From the NCBI RefSeq assembly GCF_004010155.1, contig NZ_RRYH01000041.1:1-41446 (forward strand): a DNA stretch of 41,446 nucleotides. Direction: 5' to 3'. Below the pieces are notes generated by a model. That model ran no database searches. It saw nothing but the letters and a program-made list of their open reading frames with translations, and was not told where the DNA came from. Of this stretch, positions 10,409 through 19,215 are shown piece after piece; the stretch's first letter is position 1, and each line of letters begins with the position of its first letter. The position numbers and the translations under genes were made by a program. Source of the stretch: Solirhodobacter olei. Its GTDB lineage: Bacteria; Pseudomonadota; Alphaproteobacteria; Rhodobacterales; Rhodobacteraceae.

Positions 10409-10912
10409 ATGAATGCTCCAGATGCCGCCGTGGGTCCGCCGCCGGGGCGCATGATGCCCGTTGGGCTGATGTGTACCGCTCTGCGTCCAGTTCTCGGTCG
10501 GGTCGTTCGCCGTATAGCTGCGCATCACCCCGAGATGTTTGCCCGGATCGCACCTTACGAAACGGCGGATTTTGTCATCGTGCCAAAGGAACTGCCCTTT
10601 GCGCTGCATCTGCGCCCCGAGCCGTCGGCGCCGATGCTCAGGGCCGTGCCGAAGGATCGCCTGCCGCCCTTTCACGCGTGTATCGAGGGGCGCTTCCTGC
10701 TGCTGCTGGAACTGGTCGATGGAGAAAGCGATGGAGACGCTGCCTTCTTTTCGCGCGACCTCACGATCTCCGGCAACACCGAGGCCGTCGTCAGCCTGCG
10801 CAACGCGCTCGACGATATCGATGGATCGGTTGCCCAGGAGACGGCCGATCTGTTCGGCCCGCCCGGGCGGGCGGTCCTCAACATCCTCAGGCGGAGAAGC
10901 GGAAGACAATGA
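10409..10912 (+). CDS. ubiT: Anaerobic ubiquinone biosynthesis accessory factor UbiT (SCP2 domain)
   Basis: A 167-residue SCP2 sterol-carrier-like protein of the UbiT (YhbT) family. In E. coli UbiT is thought to hold the lipid intermediates of ubiquinone synthesis when oxygen is absent. The SCP2 fold spans about residues 45-155 (FVIVPKELPFALHL, IEGRFLLLLELVDG, FFSRDLTISGNTEAVV). The start has a good AGAGGAGA site. Its stop overlaps the ubiU start (ATGA), and ubiU and ubiV follow, so the three are co-transcribed and probably act as one complex. Location beside nirK fits a need for ubiquinone during denitrification. Confidence 0.9.
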   Translation: MNAPDAAVGPPPGRMMPVGLMCTALRPVLGRVVRRIAAHHPEMFARIAPYETADFVIVPKELPFALHLRPEPSAPMLRAVPKDRLPPFHACIEGRFLLLLELVDGESDGDAAFFSRDLTISGNTEAVVSLRNALDDIDGSVAQETADLFGPPGRAVLNILRRRSGRQ

Positions 10913-11928
10913 ACGAAACGAGTGACTTCTCGGCGGCCGGCGAACTCGTCTGCCCGGCCGGTACCCCGGCTGCCCTGCGCACCGCTGTCGATGCGGGGGC
11001 GGATTCGGTCTATTGCGGTTTCCGCAACGCCACCAACGCGCGCAACTTCCCCGGCCTGAATTTCACGGCCGAGGAACTTGAGGCATCGGTTGCCTACGCT
11101 CATGCCCGGGGGGCTCGTGTGCTCCTCGCGCTCAATACCTACCCGCCTGCGGGCAAGGTCGGCCTCTGGCGGGACGCCGCGGACATCGGTGTGCGGGCGG
11201 GGGTGGATGCCTTCATCGTCGCGGATATGGGGGTCGCCCATTACATCGCCGAAACGCACCCCGGCGCCCGGCTTCACCTTTCGGTTCAGGCCGCCGCCTC
11301 CAGCCCTGAAGCGATCCGTTACTATTGCCAGCATTTCGGGGTGCGCCGCGTGGTGCTGCCGCGCATCCTGACGATACCGGAAATCCGCGAGATCAAGCGC
11401 GAGATCCCCTGCGAGATCGAAACCTTCGTCTTCGGCAATCACGGACTGATGGTCGAGGGGCGGTGCAGCCTGACCAACTGGCTCACCGGACAGTCGACGA
11501 ACATGGACGGCGTGTGTTCCCCCGCCTCCGACGTGACCTATGAGCGTGAGGCGGACGGTTCGATGCGAAGCTGCCTCGCAGGCTTCACGATCGACGCCTT
11601 CGGCCCAGAGGAGAACGCCGGCTACCCGACGATCTGCAAGGGCCGCTATGTCGCCCCGCACCGGCCAGAAGGATACTACGCCTTCGAGGAGCCCGTGAGC
11701 CTCAACCTCGGCCGGCTCCTGCCCGAGTTGATGGCCGCCGGCGTCCACGCCTTCAAGATCGAGGGCCGGCAGCGGTCGAAATCCTATGTCCGCAGCGTCG
11801 TGTCGAATTTCCGTCGCGCGGTGGACGACATTCGCGCCGGCGCCGAGCCGAACCTTGCTGATCTGGTCGCCCTGACCGAGGGCCAGAAGGAAACCCAGGG
11901 CGCATTCAAATCGAAGAAGTGGAGGTAA
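10909..11928 (+). CDS. ubiU: Oxygen-independent ubiquinone hydroxylation protein UbiU (peptidase U32 family)
   Basis: A 339-residue U32-family protein that with UbiV carries out O2-independent hydroxylation in ubiquinone synthesis, using prephenate-derived oxygen in E. coli. U32 hallmarks include ELVCPAGTPAALRTAVDAGAD near the start as far as C15 and beyond, DSVYCGFR, and the Fe-S region at 186-247. Cysteines there are C186 (GRCSLTNW), C203 (GVCSPA), C226 (RSCLAGF) and C247 (TICKGRY). The E. coli ligand seven residues before C186 is Gly179 here, while C226 is an extra cysteine, so the cluster may be held by a shifted set. The start overlaps the ubiT stop; ubiV begins 4 bp after the stop. Confidence 0.92.
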   Translation: MNETSDFSAAGELVCPAGTPAALRTAVDAGADSVYCGFRNATNARNFPGLNFTAEELEASVAYAHARGARVLLALNTYPPAGKVGLWRDAADIGVRAGVDAFIVADMGVAHYIAETHPGARLHLSVQAAASSPEAIRYYCQHFGVRRVVLPRILTIPEIREIKREIPCEIETFVFGNHGLMVEGRCSLTNWLTGQSTNMDGVCSPASDVTYEREADGSMRSCLAGFTIDAFGPEENAGYPTICKGRYVAPHRPEGYYAFEEPVSLNLGRLLPELMAAGVHAFKIEGRQRSKSYVRSVVSNFRRAVDDIRAGAEPNLADLVALTEGQKETQGAFKSKKWR

Positions 11929-11932
11929 GGCG

Positions 11933-12850
11933 ATGGAACTCACTCTTGGCCCGATCGCCTATCACTGGTCCGCCGAAAAGAAGCGCGACTTCTACGCGCG
12001 CATCGCCGACGAGGTGCCGGTCGGCACGGTCTATCTTGGCGAGGTGATCTGCTCGAAGCGCGCACCGTTCTTCGAGCGCGAACTGCCGGAGGTGATCGCC
12101 CGGCTGGAACGGGCGGGAAAGACGGTCGTTCTGTCGTCGCTCGCCGAGGTGATGCTCAAGCGCGAGCGCGAGGCGACGGCGGGCCTCGCCTCGCTGGAGC
12201 GTCCCGAGATCGAGATCAACAACGCCTCCGGGCTCTTTGCGCGACGGGGCCGGCCGCACCGGATCGGGCCCTTCCTCAACGCCTACAACGAGGCGACGAT
12301 CGCCTGGCTGGCCGGGCAGGGGGCAAGCCACGTCTGCCTCCCGGTCGAGATGCCCTCCGAAGCGATCGCGGCGGCGTCGAAGGCGGCCGGGGCGCTCGGG
12401 ATCGGTGTCGAGGTTCAGGTCTTCGGGCGAGCGCCGCTTGCCGTCTCGGCGCGCTGCTATCACGCACGCGCCCACGGACGGATAAAGGACAACTGCCAGT
12501 TCGTCTGTGAAGAGGATCCCGACGGGATGCCGCTTTCCACACGCGATGGCGGCGCAATCCTTCGAGTCAATGGAATCCAGACCCAGTCCGAGAGCTATGT
12601 CGAGCTTTTGGACGAACTGCCGGCGTTGCAGAGGATGGGTGTCTCCCACGCCCGCCTCATGCCGCAGGACGTGGACATGGTGGCTGTCGCGGAGGTGTTC
12701 GCCGCCTGTCTTGCAGGGCATCTCGAGGCCGGGCAGGCCCGGGATCGCCTCGGTGGCCTATGTGCCGGAACGGGCTTCAGCAACGGTTTCTATCACGGCG
12801 CTGCCGGCTATCGCCGGATCGAGAGAATTGGGGCGGCTGCCTCATCCTGA
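11933..12850 (+). CDS. ubiV: Oxygen-independent ubiquinone hydroxylation protein UbiV (peptidase U32 family)
   Basis: A 305-residue U32-family partner of UbiU, each binding a [4Fe-4S] cluster. Four cysteines are present: C40 (EVICSKR), C175 (SARCYHARAH), C188 (DNCQF) and C192 (VCEEDPDG). Spacings of 13 and 4 in the last three equal those of E. coli UbiV (C180, C193, C197), and C40 matches C39. The protein begins MELTLGPIAYHW, typical of UbiV. AGG of a weak ribosome site overlaps the end of ubiU. It ends the operon; a 10-bp stem hairpin follows, before convergent nsrR. Confidence 0.93.
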   Translation: MELTLGPIAYHWSAEKKRDFYARIADEVPVGTVYLGEVICSKRAPFFERELPEVIARLERAGKTVVLSSLAEVMLKREREATAGLASLERPEIEINNASGLFARRGRPHRIGPFLNAYNEATIAWLAGQGASHVCLPVEMPSEAIAAASKAAGALGIGVEVQVFGRAPLAVSARCYHARAHGRIKDNCQFVCEEDPDGMPLSTRDGGAILRVNGIQTQSESYVELLDELPALQRMGVSHARLMPQDVDMVAVAEVFAACLAGHLEAGQARDRLGGLCAGTGFSNGFYHGAAGYRRIERIGAAASS

Positions 12851-12964: not shown

Positions 12965-13396
12965 TCACTGCGCCGGCAGGCTCAGGCCGAAATCGCCGGG
13001 GCGCAGGATCAGTTCTTCGAGTGTATGCGCGTCCATGACTGCCATGAAGGCCGCCAGCGCTTCATTCAGGATGCGAGGCAAGCGGCAGGCGGGGAGGATC
13101 GCGCAGTCGCTACCCGGGCCGAAACATTCGACGATGCGGAAGTCGGGCTCGGTCGCGCGCACGACATCGCCGAGGCGGATATCCGCGGGTCTTCGGCCGA
13201 GCGTGAAGCCACCGGTACGCCCGCGCTGCGACCGCAGAAACCCCTTGTTCGCCAGCACCCGCACCACCTTCATCAGGTGCCCGCGCGAGATGTTGTTGGC
13301 CGCGAGCGTCTCCTCGATGGTGATCATCCGCTCCCCGTGCGCTGCAGCGAAGAGGAGCACGCGCAGGGCGTAGTCGGATGCCATGGTCAGCCGCAT
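12965..13396 (-). CDS. nsrR: Rrf2-family nitric-oxide-sensing repressor NsrR
   Basis: A 143-residue Rrf2 regulator. The winged helix covers about residues 1-65 (YALRVLLFAA, ISRGHLMKVVRVLANKG, GRTGGFTL). Three cysteines C91, C98 and C104 (ECFGPGSDC and PACRLP) match the NsrR cluster ligands of E. coli (C91, C96, C102). Asp8 (MASDYALRV) matches the fourth ligand known from Streptomyces NsrR. The [4Fe-4S] cluster reacts with NO and lifts repression of NO-defence genes. A strong GGAGGAG site precedes the ATG at 13396. The gene faces away from the NO-response operon beginning at 13902, whose promoter carries an A/T palindrome that is a plausible target. Confidence 0.9.
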   Translation of the reverse strand: MRLTMASDYALRVLLFAAAHGERMITIEETLAANNISRGHLMKVVRVLANKGFLRSQRGRTGGFTLGRRPADIRLGDVVRATEPDFRIVECFGPGSDCAILPACRLPRILNEALAAFMAVMDAHTLEELILRPGDFGLSLPAQ

Positions 13397-13429: not shown

Positions 13430-13826
<397 letters not shown>

Positions 13827-13836
13827 CTATCGGAAA

Positions 13837-13861
13837 AAAGAAATATTGACAATATTTTTTT
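13837..13861 (+). promoter_or_regulatory. A/T palindrome overlapping a TTGACA promoter element, upstream of the NO-response operon
   Basis: AAATATT (13841-13847), GAC, AATATTT (13851-13857) form a perfect 17-bp palindrome, extended by further A/T pairs to 13837-13861. A consensus -35 TTGACA (13846-13851) lies inside it, so a bound dimer would block RNA polymerase. It is an abrupt A/T island in GC-rich DNA, 41 bp before the first gene of the operon. An Rrf2 protein such as the adjacent NsrR is the natural candidate, but no match to a known NsrR consensus is claimed. Confidence 0.5.
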
Positions 13862-13901: not shown

Positions 13902-14162
13902 ATGCCGACCGACGCCGACTCCACCGAGGCGACCACCGTCCTGGACCTTCGCCCGCTCATTCCGCCCGAACGACATGCAACGGTTTTCGCCGCGCTCGAG
14001 CGGCTGCTGCCGGGGGAGAGCTTCGTTCTGATCAACGATCACGCCCCGCTCCCGCTGCTGCGGCATATCGAGGCCAACTGGCCAGGCCTCTTTGAGAGCG
14101 CATGGCTGAAAGATGGGCCCGAGGAGTGGCAGCTCGCCATCACCCGCACGGCGGAGGCATAG
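13902..14162 (+). CDS. DUF2249 domain protein
   Basis: An 86-residue protein with the DUF2249 pattern: LDLRPLIPPERH at 15-26, then LLPGESFVLINDHAPLPLL and a C-terminal WQLAITR. It is often encoded with hemerythrin, cupin or nitrite/NO genes in denitrifiers, and belongs to a small alpha/beta fold of unknown biochemical role. The ATG at 13902 follows AGAAAGGAAAG. It is the first gene of an apparently continuous operon extending to the DUF488 gene at 18650, and lies 41 bp after the A/T palindrome. A role in NO/nitrite response is inferred from neighbours. Confidence 0.8.
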   Translation: MPTDADSTEATTVLDLRPLIPPERHATVFAALERLLPGESFVLINDHAPLPLLRHIEANWPGLFESAWLKDGPEEWQLAITRTAEA

Positions 14163-14207: not shown

Positions 14208-14504
14208 ATGGCACGGATCGAATTCGTTAGCGGGCGCGCGCAGGTCGAGGCCGCCTACCTCGCCCGGGCGCTTGCCCTGAGCCCCGAAGAGCTGCAGCGC
14301 GGCATGCGCGAGGGCGCGATCACAAGCCGGCTCGAACGGGGCGAGGGGGAGGACTCGGGCCGGATCCGCCTGACCTTTTTCTCCCCCCACCGCAGGTCCC
14401 GGATCGTCGCCGACGAGACGGGGCGGGTTCTGACCTGCGTCACGGTGCCGCTGACCGCCACGCGCGGCAACACAGGTCCCGGACCGAAGACGGAAGGTCG
14501 GTGA
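14208..14504 (+). CDS. DUF6522-like small protein
   Basis: A 98-residue soluble protein resembling the family I know as DUF6522. The conserved blocks are YLARALALSPEELQ, MREGAITSRLERG and RIRLTFFSPHRR, then VADETGRVL. The function is unknown; members are found near denitrification and respiration genes. The ATG at 14208 has AAAGAGG upstream. The gene lies 4 bp before the Mrp fusion gene. The same domain recurs inside the NifU fusion protein two genes downstream (its residues 216-288), implying a shared function with Fe-S handling. The family name is from memory. Confidence 0.75.
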   Translation: MARIEFVSGRAQVEAAYLARALALSPEELQRGMREGAITSRLERGEGEDSGRIRLTFFSPHRRSRIVADETGRVLTCVTVPLTATRGNTGPGPKTEGR

Positions 14505-14508
14505 AGCC

Positions 14509-15690
14509 ATGAGCGCTGTGTTACGCCAGGCCGAGCCCGCCGATCCTCTGGCCCGTCTCGGCCGGCTCATCGCCGTTGCCAGCGGCAAGGGTGGCGTGGG
14601 CAAGTCGACGGTTTCGGCCAATCTCGCCGCCATTCTGGCCCGGCGTGGGCTGCGGGTCGGGCTGGTCGATGCCGATCTCTACGGCCCGTCGATCCCGGGC
14701 ATGCTTGGCATCGCCGCCGATACACCTCCGGCCATGTCGCCCGGAGGCAAGGTGATCCCGGCCGAGGCCCACGGCGTGAAGGTCATCTCCATGGCGATGC
14801 TGACCGGCGACGACCGGCCCGCCGTCCTGCGCGGACCGATGGTCACGAAGTACCTCCGGATGTTCGTCACCCAGGTGGACTGGAGCACGCTGGACGTGCT
14901 GCTGCTCGACCTGCCGCCCGGCACCGGCGACACGCAGCTGACCCTTGCGCAGTCCTTTCCGCTCGCTGGCGCCGTCGTCGTCTCCACCCCGCAGGACGTG
15001 AGCCTGAAGATCGCCCGTCGCGGGATAAGGATGATGGAGCAGGTGAGCGTGCCGATCCTCGGCATCGTCGAGAACATGAGCGGGTTCACCTGCCCCTCCT
15101 GCGGCGGGGTCACGCATATCTTCCATCAGGGTGGCGGCCGGAGTGTCGCCGAAGGTCTCGGCGTTCCCTTCCTCGGCGCCATCCCGCTTGATCCGGCCAT
15201 CGTCGATGGAGGCGACAGTGGCGTACCGCTGGTCGTCGACTCCCCGACGAGCCTGGCCGCCCGCGCCTTCGAGGTTGTCGCTGACGCCCTGACGGGCGAT
15301 CTGGCGCCGTCCGGCGGGCTCCGCATGCCGTTCGACTGGACGCTGGCCACCGGCGCCGGCCGGCCCGCGCCGGCCTCCCACGGCCCCGCCGGCCGGCCCC
15401 TGGCGCTCGACTACGACGCGACCGGTCTGACGATCGGCTGGCCCGACGGCAGCCGGCACCTCGACCCGCGCGAGCTGCGCCTGGCCTGCCGCTGCGCGGC
15501 GTGCCGCGACGAACTCACCGGGAAGGCGCTGCTTGATCCGGCAAAGGTGCCGCTTGATGTGGTGCCGGTCCGGATCTGGAGCGTCGGCAACTACGCGCTC
15601 GGCATCGCCTTCAGCGATGGCCACGACTCGGGCATCTGCACCTTCGAGGCCCTGCGTGCGCTCGAAGGCAGCGAGGCCGAGGATGTCTGA
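14509..15690 (+). CDS. Mrp/NBP35-type Fe-S carrier ATPase fused to a DUF971 domain
   Basis: A 393-residue P-loop protein. Residues about 18-265 form a Mrp/ApbC ATPase with the deviant Walker A KGGVGKST at 27-34, DADLYGPS at 54-61, LPPGTGDT at 135-142 and the cluster-binding CPSC at 195-198. Mrp/ApbC proteins carry and transfer [4Fe-4S] clusters. The usual N-terminal MIP18-like domain is absent. Residues about 297-385 are a DUF971 (GBBH-like N-terminal) domain with a second cysteine group C327, C329, C332 and the ending HDSGICTFEALRAL. The start is 4 bp after the previous gene, and the stop overlaps the NifU fusion start by 8 bp. It probably loads or repairs clusters damaged by NO; the client is unknown. 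Confidence 0.88.
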   Translation: MSAVLRQAEPADPLARLGRLIAVASGKGGVGKSTVSANLAAILARRGLRVGLVDADLYGPSIPGMLGIAADTPPAMSPGGKVIPAEAHGVKVISMAMLTGDDRPAVLRGPMVTKYLRMFVTQVDWSTLDVLLLDLPPGTGDTQLTLAQSFPLAGAVVVSTPQDVSLKIARRGIRMMEQVSVPILGIVENMSGFTCPSCGGVTHIFHQGGGRSVAEGLGVPFLGAIPLDPAIVDGGDSGVPLVVDSPTSLAARAFEVVADALTGDLAPSGGLRMPFDWTLATGAGRPAPASHGPAGRPLALDYDATGLTIGWPDGSRHLDPRELRLACRCAACRDELTGKALLDPAKVPLDVVPVRIWSVGNYALGIAFSDGHDSGICTFEALRALEGSEAEDV

Positions 15691-16942
15691 AGCCACCCAG
15701 CACCGGCGCATTCGGGCCCAGGGATCGGCGCACGACCCTCTGGTGATGCGGTTCATTCTCGACGCGCCGATCCACACCGACGGAACTCTGCGCTTCGACG
15801 CGCCCGCGCCGGACGTGCCTCTGGCACAGGCGCTCTTCGCTGTCGACGGCGTGACCGGCATGCAGGTCTCTGGCGAGACCATCCTTGTGACCCGCGCCCC
15901 CGAACACGACTGGGACCGGCTGAAAGCCCCCATCGCCGCTGCGATCCGCGAGGCTCTGGACCGCGGCGACCCGCCGCTTGGGCCACCCTCCGAGGCGGCT
16001 GTCGGACACGGCGACGATGCGGCAATGCTTGCTGCCGTGGCCGAGGTTCTTGACGCGCGGGCGAATCCCGCGATCGCGCGGCATGGCGGCCGGGTCAATG
16101 CCGAGGCTGTCGAGAACGGCATCGTCTCCCTGCGGATGTCCGGCGGCTGCCAGGGCTGCGCCGCCTCCTCGCGCACGCTGAGGGAGGGGGTGGAGAAGAT
16201 GCTGCGTGCCGCGGTCCCCGGCATTCGGGCGATCGTCGATGTGACCGACCACGAGGGGGGAGCCAACCCCTACTACCGGGGCAAGTCCGGAGAGGGCCCC
16301 CGTTTCTTCCGGCCGGTTCCGCCTGATGCCGTCAGCATTGAGGACGGCCAGATCGTGATCGATCCCGACTACCTCGCCCCGCGGCTGGGACTGACGGCCG
16401 AGGCCCTCGAGGCGGGCTTCCGCGATGGCGACGTGGCGACGGAGCGCCTGAGCGGCGGCACTTCGGACCACCTGCGGATTGCGGTCCGCGGTCCCGCAAG
16501 GGCGTGGGCAGCTGAGATCCTGCCCGATGGCACGGCCCACGAGATTCCCCCGCCCCGCGAGCGCGCGGCGGCCGACGCTGCAAACGCCGCGCTCGCCACC
16601 AGGATCCGTGCCCACCTCCAGGCTTTGCCGGAGGGCCGGCTGCCCATCACATACGGGCGGCTCGCGCGTGCGCTCGGGCTGTACTTGCCCGGCTCGATCC
16701 GGCAGGTGACCGCGGCCCTCGAAACCACGATGCACGAGGACGCCCGGGCCGGCCGGCCGTTCATCGCTGCCCGGGCCGTCGGCCGGGGCAGCGGCCTGCC
16801 CGGCAGGGGCTTCTTCGATCTTGCCCAGAGGCTGGGCAGAGGGCCTCGGGCGACGGAAACCGACGATGCGTTCTACCGCCGCATGCTGTGGGCGAGCCTC
16901 CGGCCGGGCGACGGCGAAGCCAATGCCTCTGTGCCGCAATAG
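15683..16942 (+). CDS. NifU-family multidomain fusion (Nfu N-like, NifU, DUF6522-like, helical C-terminal domain)
   Basis: A 419-residue fusion. Residues about 15-95 resemble the Nfu N-terminal scaffold domain (VMRFILDAPI, LFAVDGVTGM). Residues 113-190 are a NifU C-terminal domain with the cluster motif GGCQGCAASS (C156, C159). Residues 216-288 repeat the DUF6522-like domain of the gene at 14208: DYLAPRLGLTAEALEAG aligns with AYLARALALSPEELQRG. Residues about 305-405 are helical with ITYGRLARALGLYLPG and RGFFDLAQRLGRG, a module reminiscent of the DNA-binding half of alkyltransferase-like proteins; this last assignment is uncertain. It starts inside the mrp end, so synthesis is probably coupled. 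It likely assembles or hands over Fe-S clusters for denitrification enzymes or regulators. Confidence 0.82.
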   Translation: MSEATQHRRIRAQGSAHDPLVMRFILDAPIHTDGTLRFDAPAPDVPLAQALFAVDGVTGMQVSGETILVTRAPEHDWDRLKAPIAAAIREALDRGDPPLGPPSEAAVGHGDDAAMLAAVAEVLDARANPAIARHGGRVNAEAVENGIVSLRMSGGCQGCAASSRTLREGVEKMLRAAVPGIRAIVDVTDHEGGANPYYRGKSGEGPRFFRPVPPDAVSIEDGQIVIDPDYLAPRLGLTAEALEAGFRDGDVATERLSGGTSDHLRIAVRGPARAWAAEILPDGTAHEIPPPRERAAADAANAALATRIRAHLQALPEGRLPITYGRLARALGLYLPGSIRQVTAALETTMHEDARAGRPFIAARAVGRGSGLPGRGFFDLAQRLGRGPRATETDDAFYRRMLWASLRPGDGEANASVPQ

Positions 16943-16988: not shown

Positions 16989-17435
16989 GTGCCAGTTGAA
17001 GCCCCGAAGATCGCTGGCCAGACCGTCCGGCCCGAGCTGACGGCCGCGATCATGGCGCAGACGGGGCTCAACGATGATGTCCTGCAAAAGCTCGTCTACA
17101 GCTTCTATGCCAAGGTGCGCTCCGACGCCGTGCTCGGCCCGATCTTCGCGGCACGCATTCACGACTGGCCGCCGCATCTCGAGCGGATGTGCGCGTTCTG
17201 GTCCTCGGTCGCGCTGATGACGGGACGCTACCGCGGCGCGCCGGTGCCGGCCCATCTCGGGCTGCCCGTTACCTGGGCGCATTTCGAGCGCTGGCTTGCG
17301 CTTTTCCGCGAGACCGCCGGCGAGGTCTGCCCACCCGCCGGCGCCGCGCTTGTGGTGGAGAAAGCCGAACGGATCGCCCGCTCGCTGCATCTGGCCGTCT
17401 TAGGCCAAGACGCCGCAATCCCAGACATGAGTTGA
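16989..17435 (+). CDS. Group III truncated hemoglobin
   Basis: A 148-residue globin of the truncated group III type, recognised by LVYSFYAKV, LGPIFAARIHDWPPHLERMCAFW and TGRYRGAP in sequence, each part typical of this class. H89 (AHLGLP) is the likely proximal haem ligand and Y40 a probable distal residue. Such globins bind O2 and NO and are linked to NO detoxification. The GTG at 16989 is taken as the start because AAAGGAGG lies 6 nt upstream; an ATG at 16952 would add 12 residues with no such site. It lies between the NifU fusion and the hemerythrin gene in the NO-response operon. Confidence 0.88.
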   Translation: MPVEAPKIAGQTVRPELTAAIMAQTGLNDDVLQKLVYSFYAKVRSDAVLGPIFAARIHDWPPHLERMCAFWSSVALMTGRYRGAPVPAHLGLPVTWAHFERWLALFRETAGEVCPPAGAALVVEKAERIARSLHLAVLGQDAAIPDMS

Positions 17436-17447
17436 AGGAGAAGAAGA

Positions 17448-17933
17448 ATGGACCCGCACGTACCAGATGACCCTGCCGATCTCACCCGCTTCATCGAGAC
17501 GCGCTACCATGAAACCCACCGCGCGCAGCTGGCGACGCTCATTCCCCTGGCCGAAAAGGTTCAGACTGTCCACTACGGCGACAAGAACGTTCCCCTGGGG
17601 CTGGTCGATGTTCTCGAGCGGCTTCGCGGTGAGATGGAGGTGCATATGAAGAAGGAGGAGCTGATCCTCTTTCCGGCCATCCGCCGCGGCGGGATGTCGG
17701 GGATCGGGCAGCCGATCGCTGCAATGCGGGCCGACCATGACGATCACGGCCGAGACAGCGCCGAGATCCTGCGGCTGACCGGCGATCTGGCGCTGCCCGA
17801 GGGGGCCTGCCGCAGCTGGGCTGCGCTCTACGACGGCCTCGGCACTTTCCTCGACGATCTTCAGGCTCATATCCGGCTGGAGAACGAAGTGCTATTTCCG
17901 CAGTTCGAGGAAGGGGTGCCGGCCCATGGATGA
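17448..17933 (+). CDS. Hemerythrin-domain protein (RIC/DnrN-like di-iron protein)
   Basis: A 161-residue hemerythrin-domain protein. Di-iron ligands are visible as H21/H24 (RYHETHR), H66 with E70 (HMKKEE), H97 or H100 (ADHDDH) and H141 with E145 (HIRLENEVLF). It corresponds to the C-terminal domain of YtfE/ScdA/DnrN repair-of-iron-centres proteins, which help Fe-S clusters recover from NO. The short N-terminal ScdA domain with its cysteine pair is absent. GAAGGAGAAG precedes the ATG. The stop overlaps the AhpD-like gene by 8 bp. Regulation with the operon by NO is inferred. Confidence 0.88.
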   Translation: MDPHVPDDPADLTRFIETRYHETHRAQLATLIPLAEKVQTVHYGDKNVPLGLVDVLERLRGEMEVHMKKEELILFPAIRRGGMSGIGQPIAAMRADHDDHGRDSAEILRLTGDLALPEGACRSWAALYDGLGTFLDDLQAHIRLENEVLFPQFEEGVPAHG

Positions 17934-18270
17934 GCTGCATCTTCCCAAAGCGAGCCGGGCGCGGGTTGCGCAGCGAGGGGCGCTTGCCCCGGCCCAGGAA
18001 GCGGCATTCCGCGCTTTCTCACAAGCGGCCTTCGCGGAGGGGGCGCTCGATGTCCGGACCAAGCAGCTGATCGCGGTTGCGGTGGCGCATGTCACGCAAT
18101 GTCCCTGGTGCATCGAGAGCCATGCCAAGGCTGCACGAAGGGCTGGCGCAAGTGCGGAGCAGGTGATGGAGGCGATCTGGGTCGCCGCCGAAATGCGTGC
18201 CGGCGCCGCCTGGTCGCACGCCTTCGTGGCGCTGGAGGCGATGGAGCCCGGGGACGGGCACGCACCATGA
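17926..18270 (+). CDS. AhpD-like / carboxymuconolactone decarboxylase family protein
   Basis: A 114-residue all-helical protein of the AhpD/CMD family. The redox-active motif CPWCIESH lies at about 61-68, preceded by RTKQLIAVAVAHVTQ, which is diagnostic of the family. AhpD-type proteins reduce peroxides or peroxynitrite-linked thiols with a CxxC pair and a downstream histidine. The gene overlaps both neighbours by a few bases (hemerythrin upstream, DUF488 downstream), so it belongs to the NO-response operon. A role against nitrosative or oxidative stress is inferred. Confidence 0.85.
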   Translation: MDELHLPKASRARVAQRGALAPAQEAAFRAFSQAAFAEGALDVRTKQLIAVAVAHVTQCPWCIESHAKAARRAGASAEQVMEAIWVAAEMRAGAAWSHAFVALEAMEPGDGHAP

Positions 18271-18654: not shown

Positions 18655-19215
18655 GACCGCGCGGCGCGCCGCAAGCCAGCGGCGCGTTAAGCTTTGGATG
18701 ATCCGGCAGCCGATCGCCATGATAAGAAAGACGACAAGGGCGTGCCCCTCCCGCCGCGCAGCGCCTGTCCCTTCCTCGGTTATCGCACCGAGTTGCAACA
18801 AGAGGCTTGCAACCCCGAAAAGCGTCATTGGCACCACCACGTTCAGGTCCCGCCAGTTGCGGCGCGCGACGACCTCTGCCGTGTTGATCGACGCTATGGC
18901 TGAGGTGCACGCCACGTCGATCAGCATCATCTTACGGGCCTCCCGAGCCCGGACACCCCCGCCACAGCCAGAAGGAGCGCCTGCGCGGGCATCCGCCCGG
19001 TCCAGTTCGGTGCCTCGGTGGACAGGAATCCGGCCAGCACCGCGCCGGCATAGCCAAACAGTATCTCGTCGGTGTGCCGGTCCATCGGATCGAATGGTCT
19101 GGCCGGCGTTATCCGCCCCATCCGAACGCAAAGGCAGAGCGGATCGTCGCCGCCCCGAACAGGCTGGCAGCACGACGAACGGAGGGACACAGAGGCTGAG
19201 CAGGGCAGGGCCGCG
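18655..19215 (-). pseudogene. nnrS: nnrS remnant, frameshifted and missing its C-terminal half
   Basis: Three pieces of an NnrS haem-copper membrane protein can be read on the minus strand in two frames. Near 19190 LSLCVPPFVVLPACSG replaces the usual FSLGFRPFF start. At 19115-18930 FGYAGAVLAGFLSTEAPNW continues to TGRMPAQALLL in a second frame. At 18950-18660 RRNWRDLNVVVPMTL through CRIIQSLTRRWLAARR returns to the first frame, matching GGRIIPSFTRNWLA of intact NnrS. About 200 of some 400 residues are represented. At least two frameshifts are needed and the rest is absent, with the break next to the DUF488 gene. NnrS normally eases NO stress during denitrification. Confidence 0.75.

Follow-up and report, generated by a model that had tools for sequence, protein, structure and literature searches.

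The window, as the analysed stretch is called here, comprises 41,446 nt of the Solirhodobacter olei contig NZ_RRYH01000041.1 (GCF_004010155.1), read on the forward strand, and it contains a closely packed plus-strand run of four genes that includes an Nfu-type iron-sulfur (Fe-S) carrier fusion. The first gene (13902..14162) encodes a DUF2249 protein (PF10006, E 9.8e-24) and is followed by the gene of P0001, a stand-alone DUF6522 protein of 98 aa (14208..14504; PF20132, E 6.2e-30). Next lies the gene of P0003 (14509..15690), a Mrp/ApbC-type P-loop ATPase (PF10609, E 8.7e-93) with a C-terminal DUF971 domain (PF06155, E 3.6e-18), the end of which is overlapped by the start of the gene of P0002, the 419-aa fusion (15683..16942). 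The positions and lengths assigned to these three proteins in the initial annotation, with the Mrp-DUF971 gene between the other two, are correct.

The fusion consists of four domains, all on the plus strand: Nfu_N at residues 18-94 (15734..15964; PF08712, E 4.1e-11), NifU with a CxxC motif at C156/C159 (16037..16234; PF01106, E 1.7e-19), a fused DUF6522 domain (16328..16546; located by BLASTP, Pfam, profile-profile comparison and AlphaFold2), and a C-terminal domain at residues ~299-410 (16577..16912; PF01035, E 9e-4 when scanned alone, below the cut-off). The initial annotation had recognized the Nfu part and the DUF6522 segment and left the C-terminal domain unmentioned. A NifU domain with CxxC together with Nfu_N places the fusion among the Nfu-type carriers, while its score against the NfuA equivalog TIGR03341 (73.1 bits) lies below the cut-off of 269.35. 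When the whole fusion model was submitted to Foldseek, only two chains were returned at E<=0.001, and both are human NFU1 domains.

For the comparisons, 80 fusion loci were kept out of 291 relatives; some of them are cut by contig ends, and the counts of neighbouring genes are therefore lower bounds. By their genera, most of these loci presumably belong to Rhodobacterales, and a few carry broader labels.

Homology of the fused and stand-alone DUF6522 domains

The initial annotation had aligned fusion residues 216-288 with P0001 and had proposed profile-profile comparison and structure prediction as checks; Pfam, BLASTP and both of these checks agree with the alignment. P0001 scores 103.2 bits against the Pfam DUF6522 model (gathering score 25), and fusion residues 216-265 match the same model at E 4.7e-4 with 20.3 bits, short of the 25-bit cut-off, which is passed by the fused copies of some relatives (e.g., 54.2 bits in G834, a 476-aa open frame). 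By BLASTP, P0001 and the fusion share 31% identity over 59 aa (E 1e-5), and in a search with P0001 the fusion homologue is listed for 72 of the 80 loci (E<=1e-3); L023-L027, L040, L089 and L093 are missed, and so is the window's own fusion. In the profile-profile comparison, 54 stand-alone sequences (after L114, a fragment, L026, a divergent sequence, and one identical row were dropped) were compared with 76 fused segments, which gave a probability of 99.5% and E 3.2e-23 over 74 columns. The control profiles of Nfu_N, NifU and the C-terminal domain reached at most 1.4%, and 30 column-shuffled profiles reached at most 1.74%, so that chance similarity of the two segments is ruled out. Reciprocally, a profile of fusion residues 205-405 reaches stand-alone DUF6522 proteins down to E 1.4e-12. 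Finally, the AlphaFold2 models of the fusion (pLDDT 85.5, from 61 sequences) and of P0001 (pLDDT 83.8, from 7 sequences) show, in the fused domain and in P0001, the identical order of eight elements, beta-beta-alpha-alpha-beta-beta-beta-beta, the two being compared by this order.

The tree comprised 99 rows and 86 columns and included 45 of the 76 fused rows. A branch with support 97/79, slightly under the starred level of the tool, has the fused copies together on one side, and P0001 is placed among the stand-alone proteins. This placement rules out a recent duplication within the locus. The fused segment had been described as a second copy of the small protein; based on the tree, residues ~216-288 are instead a true, diverged homologous DUF6522 domain, that is, an old paralogue.

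It is unlikely that DUF6522 itself supplies cluster ligands. The highest column frequencies are 0.44 for Cys and 0.22 for His in the stand-alone proteins, and 0.01 and 0.14, respectively, in the fused copies; conserved Arg and Asp/Glu residues are present. Because the domain lacks conserved Cys or His, docking is a more probable role than cluster binding, and the extra domain of NfuA, which targets NfuA to apo-proteins (PMC8593673), is a precedent. The predicted stand-alone fold had no match at E<=0.001 in a Foldseek search of the PDB, and a sequence search for DUF6522 returned no relative below E 0.1. On some stand-alone proteins (L024:4324-4785, L027:3999-4412 and L026:3421-3909), the domain is followed by a C-terminal tail with a common motif resembling LLDEALDxSFPASDPIAV; P0001 carries no such tail.

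Within the literature searched (titles and the beginnings of abstracts, with most subscription journals outside the search), no paper naming DUF6522 and no record of its function were found, and the fusion and the MarR-Mrp-Nfu operon treated below were likewise undescribed. Added targeting domains are already known from other Fe-S carriers; the present combination of domains, the split pairs and the association with a five-cysteine MarR protein are new with respect to that literature.

The carrier pair and its MarR gene

The architecture of the fusion is well kept among its relatives. Matches covering 330 or more of the 419 residues are found in 75 of the 80 loci, two of them truncated at contig ends, and both cysteines of the NifU CxxC are invariant in 61 sequences. 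In a sample of the order, the whole half comprising DUF6522 and the C-terminal domain is present in 18 of 292 genomes. A Mrp gene lies within 400 nt of the fusion on the same strand in 76 of the 80 loci, with the DUF971 end matched in 75. Of the four loci without a nearby Mrp gene, two (L088 and L096) are truncated at a contig end. A survey of this pairing had been suggested in the initial annotation. Since a further NifU-domain gene (C69) and a further Mrp-like gene (C44) are present in the window genome, the pair is accessory. The earlier proposal of a dedicated Fe-S apparatus is well supported as far as it concerns an accessory carrier pair, with stand-alone and fused forms of one domain around it, and is not supported, in the form stated, as regards a nitric oxide (NO) role for the fusion, given NO-related genes at 6 of the 80 loci (see below).

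P0003 contains the Walker A sequence GKGGVGKS at residue 26, CPSC (a CxxC motif) at residue 195 and CRCAAC at residue 327. It thereby carries both motifs expected of Mrp/ApbC proteins (Walker A GKGGVGKS and CxxC; PMC8593673), and its score against the ApbC equivalog is 254.8 bits, below the cut-off of 348. HCF101 is a plastid and mitochondrial carrier of the form DUF59-Mrp-DUF971. P0003 resembles it in having a Mrp ATPase with a C-terminal DUF971 domain, including the CxCxxC form CRCAAC. Its gene adjoins that of an Nfu carrier, and plastids likewise employ both HCF101 and NFU proteins as 4Fe-4S carriers (PMC5890173). Unlike HCF101, it is encoded in a bacterial accessory operon, and no N-terminal DUF59/FSCA domain was detected in P0003 (PF01883 gave no match at E up to 1, and the P-loop domain starts at residue 19); the window protein is therefore not a member of HCF101. 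The bacterial DUF971 motif is given as C[ARNH]CA[AL]C in PMC7980591, and the window form agrees with it. In the same way, the fusion is similar to NfuA/Nfu carriers in Nfu_N and in NifU with its invariant CxxC, and differs from them in the added DUF6522 and C-terminal domains and in scoring under the NfuA equivalog cut-off.

The C-terminal domain also occurs as a separate small protein in other genomes, as found in the order survey with the profile of residues 205-405. It shows weak matches to known relatives and nothing stronger. Against the MGMT-type winged helix PF01035, it reaches 16.3 bits within the whole protein and 19.5 bits alone, below the cut-off of 27. This faint likeness to a DNA-binding winged helix, together with the conserved Arg and Asp/Glu residues of DUF6522, would be expected if DUF6522 were a small-molecule or nucleic-acid binding module outside cluster delivery and if the fusion, by virtue of a winged-helix-like C-terminal domain, were a regulator in which the Nfu part acts as a sensor only. 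Such a role is highly improbable: the DNA-binding match is sub-threshold, two stand-alone homologues of the C-terminal domain give no match in a Pfam scan, the Nfu CxxC is invariant, and Mrp adjoins the fusion in nearly all loci.

In most fusion loci (53 of 80), mrp is immediately preceded by a MarR-type gene, and a profile search returns the same 53. The gaps between the matched MarR and Mrp stretches are 5-119 nt in 53 of 54 matches. These MarR proteins (for example, that of L039:4241-4804, directly upstream of mrp) share the C-terminal motif C-x2-C-x11-C-x-C-x13-C, each of whose cysteines occurs in 50 or more of 54 sequences. Like IscR, RirA and NsrR, they are cysteine-bearing regulators encoded beside Fe-S carrier genes; they differ from those in being MarR proteins with a five-cysteine tail that may bind metal. 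The MarR-Mrp-Nfu operon of Rhodobacterales is a candidate switch for Fe-S homeostasis.

Within the class, 39 of 289 genomes encode a related MarR protein (E<=1e-20). Among 30 MarR loci checked, the three best directly precede, respectively, a DUF6522-Nfu pair (L184/L221), a DUF6522-C-terminal domain pair (L187/L222) and an Nfu gene with two NifU-like stretches (L223); within the 1.5-kb flanks of the other 27, no Nfu, Mrp, DUF6522 or C-terminal domain was found. DUF6522 also adjoins an Nfu-like gene and DUF2249 in L183, and the gene of a DUF59 Fe-S protein in L196, where the run is DUF2249-DUF59-DUF6522. These gene pairs indicate that the domains fused in Rhodobacterales are neighbouring genes elsewhere. 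No MarR relative at E<=1e-20 was found for the window, where the usual MarR gene is absent.

Nitric oxide genes, candidate operator and the window's subclade

Downstream of the fusion, the plus strand of the window encodes a globin-like protein (16989..17435; PF01152, E 0.0037, sub-cut-off) and a hemerythrin-type, YtfE/DnrN-like Fe-S repair protein (17448..17933; PF01814, E 2.5e-23), which matches NCBIfam YtfE at E 1.1e-48 with 165.7 bits, below the equivalog cut-off of 254. Upstream and divergent from the operon lies the gene of a Rrf2-family regulator with three cysteines (12965..13396, minus strand; Pfam Rrf2, E 5e-30), which is NsrR/RirA-like and passes the Rrf2 superfamily cut-off (105.2 against 73.3 bits). 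Between this gene and the operon, at 13841..13857 and 44 bp before the start of DUF2249, is a perfect 17-bp palindrome, AAATATT-GAC-AATATTT (AAATATTGACAATATTT), which contains a TTGACA hexamer and is regarded as a candidate operator. When up to three mismatches are allowed, nothing else in the window matches it (expected number, 0.04; at least one match in 3 of 100 shuffles), and it is kept upstream of the equivalent operon in L023 and in G625 (L193/L106). The Rrf2 protein may bind this palindrome.

Genes linked to NO are found mainly around stand-alone DUF6522 genes. With Rrf2, globin, YtfE, DUF2249, NirK, NosR/Z/D/Y/L and pseudoazurin taken as NO markers and a distance of up to 6 kb applied to both groups, at least one marker is present in 21 of 38 stand-alone regions and at 6 of 80 fusion loci (Fisher p 3e-8, with fusion contigs often being shorter). 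The 38 regions contain two same-genome pairs (L193/L194 and L204/L205). L215, a fusion region, and L188 were excluded because phmmer saw no stand-alone match; L188 does carry DUF6522 by the Pfam model (59.4 bits), with Rrf2 and globin nearby, so that its exclusion works against our own reading. In addition, Pfam shows NnrS next to DUF6522 in both L191 and L214, in nearly whole-length matches; in L219, the neighbours are a COX1-family protein and a VWA protein that we take to be NorD-like. Other stand-alone genes have no NO-linked neighbours and lie, for example, near ferrochelatase (L217), DctM (L205) or HemY_N (L201). Across 292 genomes of the order, in which the weak or stop-containing stand-alone rows G769, G855 and G873 were kept as present, nosZ accompanies stand-alone DUF6522 in 28 of 58 genomes and occurs in 68 of 234 others (p=0.008), nosZ being counted at E<=1e-50 with TIGR04246, whose own cut-off is passed by 3 of the 96 positive genomes. 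The NO link therefore belongs to stand-alone DUF6522 and not to the fusion generally. The initial annotation had drawn from the placement in an NO-resistance operon that the apparatus serves clusters damaged by NO; this agrees with the surroundings of the stand-alone genes and not with those of the fusion, which rarely neighbours NO genes and mostly follows MarR.

The two forms of the domain go together in the relatives closest to the window. P0001 belongs to a stand-alone subclade (support 96/96) with L023, L024, L027, G745 and G625, all of which have the fusion except G625 (L193); the latter has a DUF2249-DUF6522-Mrp run (L193:7563-8394), in which the Mrp frame ends after ~65 matched residues. 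The fused domain of the window clusters with those of L024-L028; L037 joins this group on a long branch of uncertain placement. When 30 genomes (29 distinct, L025 and G745 being one genome with the same coordinates and counted once) were searched with P0001, a close stand-alone protein (E below 1e-17) was found in L024, L025, L026 (with one stop in the reading of the search), L027 and L028, not in L037, and in one of 23 others (L095). The seven subclade loci with a close stand-alone protein have no MarR gene, and L037 keeps it. The P0001 search fails to list, at E<=1e-3, six of the seven MarR-less subclade fusions (window and L023-L027) vs 3 of 74 other fused copies; the fused domain is thus most diverged where a P0001-like protein is present. 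To judge from these sequences, such divergence would fit a hand-over of its job to the P0001-like protein. In the window, L023 and L024, mrp immediately follows the stand-alone gene, as does the truncated Mrp in L193. Among six distinct close stand-alone genes with flanks examined, five follow a same-strand Rrf2 gene, and the window's Rrf2 gene is divergent.

Proposed role of the carrier pair and competing explanations

Based on the results presented above, we tentatively favour, at somewhat less than an even chance, a reading in which the fusion and Mrp-DUF971 form an accessory NfuA-like carrier pair with DUF6522 as a docking module, placed in the window under Rrf2 control for the refilling of clusters after NO damage. 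The fusion would hold a [4Fe-4S] cluster on the NifU CxxC and would work with the adjoining Mrp-DUF971 ATPase as a bacterial counterpart of plastid NFU and HCF101. The DUF6522 and C-terminal domains would be appended docking modules, of which DUF6522 may determine the choice of client or partner; in E. coli NfuA, a degenerate A-type domain has this function. The stand-alone protein, as a component of NO-stress gene neighbourhoods with a docking surface in common with the fused domain, may bridge the carrier to clients, compete with the fused domain, or replace it where it has diverged, as in the window. There, the Rrf2-type regulator at the conserved palindrome would switch on the carrier pair, the stand-alone protein, the globin and the YtfE-like protein, presumably as one transcript, and clusters damaged by NO would be refilled. 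The fusion and the split pairs connect DUF6522 with Fe-S carriers, and the surroundings of the stand-alone genes connect it with NO stress; the DUF6522 family may therefore help to deliver or repair Fe-S clusters. YtfE/RIC repair proteins and NsrR regulons provide a parallel in that YtfE/DnrN-like, globin-like and Rrf2 genes stand beside the carrier genes in the window; the difference is that the carrier pair goes unmentioned in the passages of PMC1274295 consulted.

The initial annotation further suggested that the small protein may be a soluble adaptor. With the window and L023 included, P0001-like proteins are present in 7 of 8 subclade genomes vs 1 of 23 others (p 2e-5, a count that includes the subclade-defining loci and uses a 1e-17 line drawn after the list had been inspected). 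Since these proteins track the window's fusion subclade, an adaptor pairing of P0001 and the fusion stays plausible here; overall, fusion and stand-alone protein do not occur together more often than expected.

The composition of that count weighs against the favoured reading, as do the following observations. Counting only the loci that do not define the subclade, the contrast is 2 of 3 vs 1 of 23 (p=0.027), and five of the 23 other genomes have a weaker stand-alone match (E 7e-14 to 1.4e-10). The MarR gene is also missing in 21 fusion loci outside the subclade, so that lacking it does not set the window's subclade apart; six of these (L044, L049, L053, L067, L073 and L075) have more than 4.8 kb before mrp. 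Across the 292 genomes, fusion and stand-alone are independent (4 of 18 vs 54 of 274, p=0.76), and the link of the fusion to nosZ, which the initial annotation had proposed to survey through denitrification genes, is not significant (8 of 18 vs 88 of 274, p=0.31). NO markers lie near so few fusion loci (6 of 80) that NO repair as a general function of the fusion can be excluded. The Rrf2 protein scores 99.4 bits against NsrR (cut-off 182) and 108.3 against RirA (193), below both equivalogs. The NsrR site consensus is gATGyAT-N5-ATrCATc in PMC1274295, and no NsrR-like site (ATGCAT-N5-ATGCAT, up to three mismatches) was found near the operon. The passages of PMC5890173 consulted, in which HCF101 and NFU2/NFU3 appear as plastid 4Fe-4S carriers, report no interaction between HCF101 and NFU.

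Several of these points would follow if the fusion and Mrp-DUF971 were a general accessory Fe-S delivery pair of Rhodobacterales, mostly under a cysteine-MarR protein sensing cluster or redox status, with the NO setting of the window as a local rearrangement that involves no special partnership. The five-cysteine MarR gene directly upstream of Mrp in 53 loci, the scarcity of NO markers at fusion loci, the independence from the stand-alone protein and the non-significant nosZ link all agree with it. We nevertheless consider a purely general role rather unlikely, since P0001-like proteins track the window's fusion subclade, the fused domain is most diverged in that subclade, and DUF6522 immediately precedes Mrp in the window, L023, L024 and L193.

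The reading of a carrier pair with DUF6522 as a docking module also has to be compared with one in which DUF6522 serves the Fe-S transcription factors themselves. In that case, DUF6522 would dock the carrier on Rrf2/NsrR or cysteine-MarR regulators, or act on them alone, and reset their cluster after NO, the Nfu fusion being a self-contained reloading protein. The order of genes gives this proposal some basis: a stand-alone gene lies up to 700 nt downstream, on the same strand, of Rrf2 in 10 and of cysteine-MarR in 2 of the 38 regions, and just after Rrf2 in 7 of 11 distinct places (two of the 11 overlap the 38 regions), and the fusion operon follows the cysteine-MarR gene in its 53 loci. Such adjacency may mean only that DUF6522 is a target of the regulator; moreover, 26 of the 38 stand-alone genes have no such regulator gene just upstream, and the window's own Rrf2 gene is divergent. 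We therefore regard this proposal as improbable. In its strict form, with DUF6522 as a dedicated adaptor bringing the Fe-S carrier to Rrf2/NsrR and five-cysteine MarR proteins and reloading those damaged by NO or redox stress, it is likewise given little weight; if true, the Nfu fusion would be a regulator-reloading carrier, and the stand-alone protein encoded beside a regulator gene would be a separate form of the same device.

The remaining genes around the operon are as follows. After the YtfE-like gene, the plus strand encodes an AhpD-like carboxymuconolactone decarboxylase family protein (17926..18270; PF02627, E 1.9e-21). By our reading of the frames, we take a gene upstream of the run to be nirK-like and genes downstream to be nos-like; the window nosZ matches TIGR04246 at E 1.4e-131 with 439 bits, below the model cut-off of 625. 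A broken NnrS lies at 18664-19103 on the minus strand, where one frame corresponds to positions 36-92 of the NnrS profile and another to positions 103-191, and the second half of the profile is matched by neither. Between the Rrf2 gene and the operon, a short minus-strand frame (13554-13826) resembles part of a pyridine-nucleotide oxidoreductase (Pyr_redox_2, E 0.0026, below the cut-off) and may be a remnant. Finally, ubiT-ubiU-ubiV, for oxygen-independent ubiquinone synthesis, lie at 10409-12850 between the nirK-like gene and the carrier operon, and the same trio is found near stand-alone DUF6522 in L200, L203 and L210.

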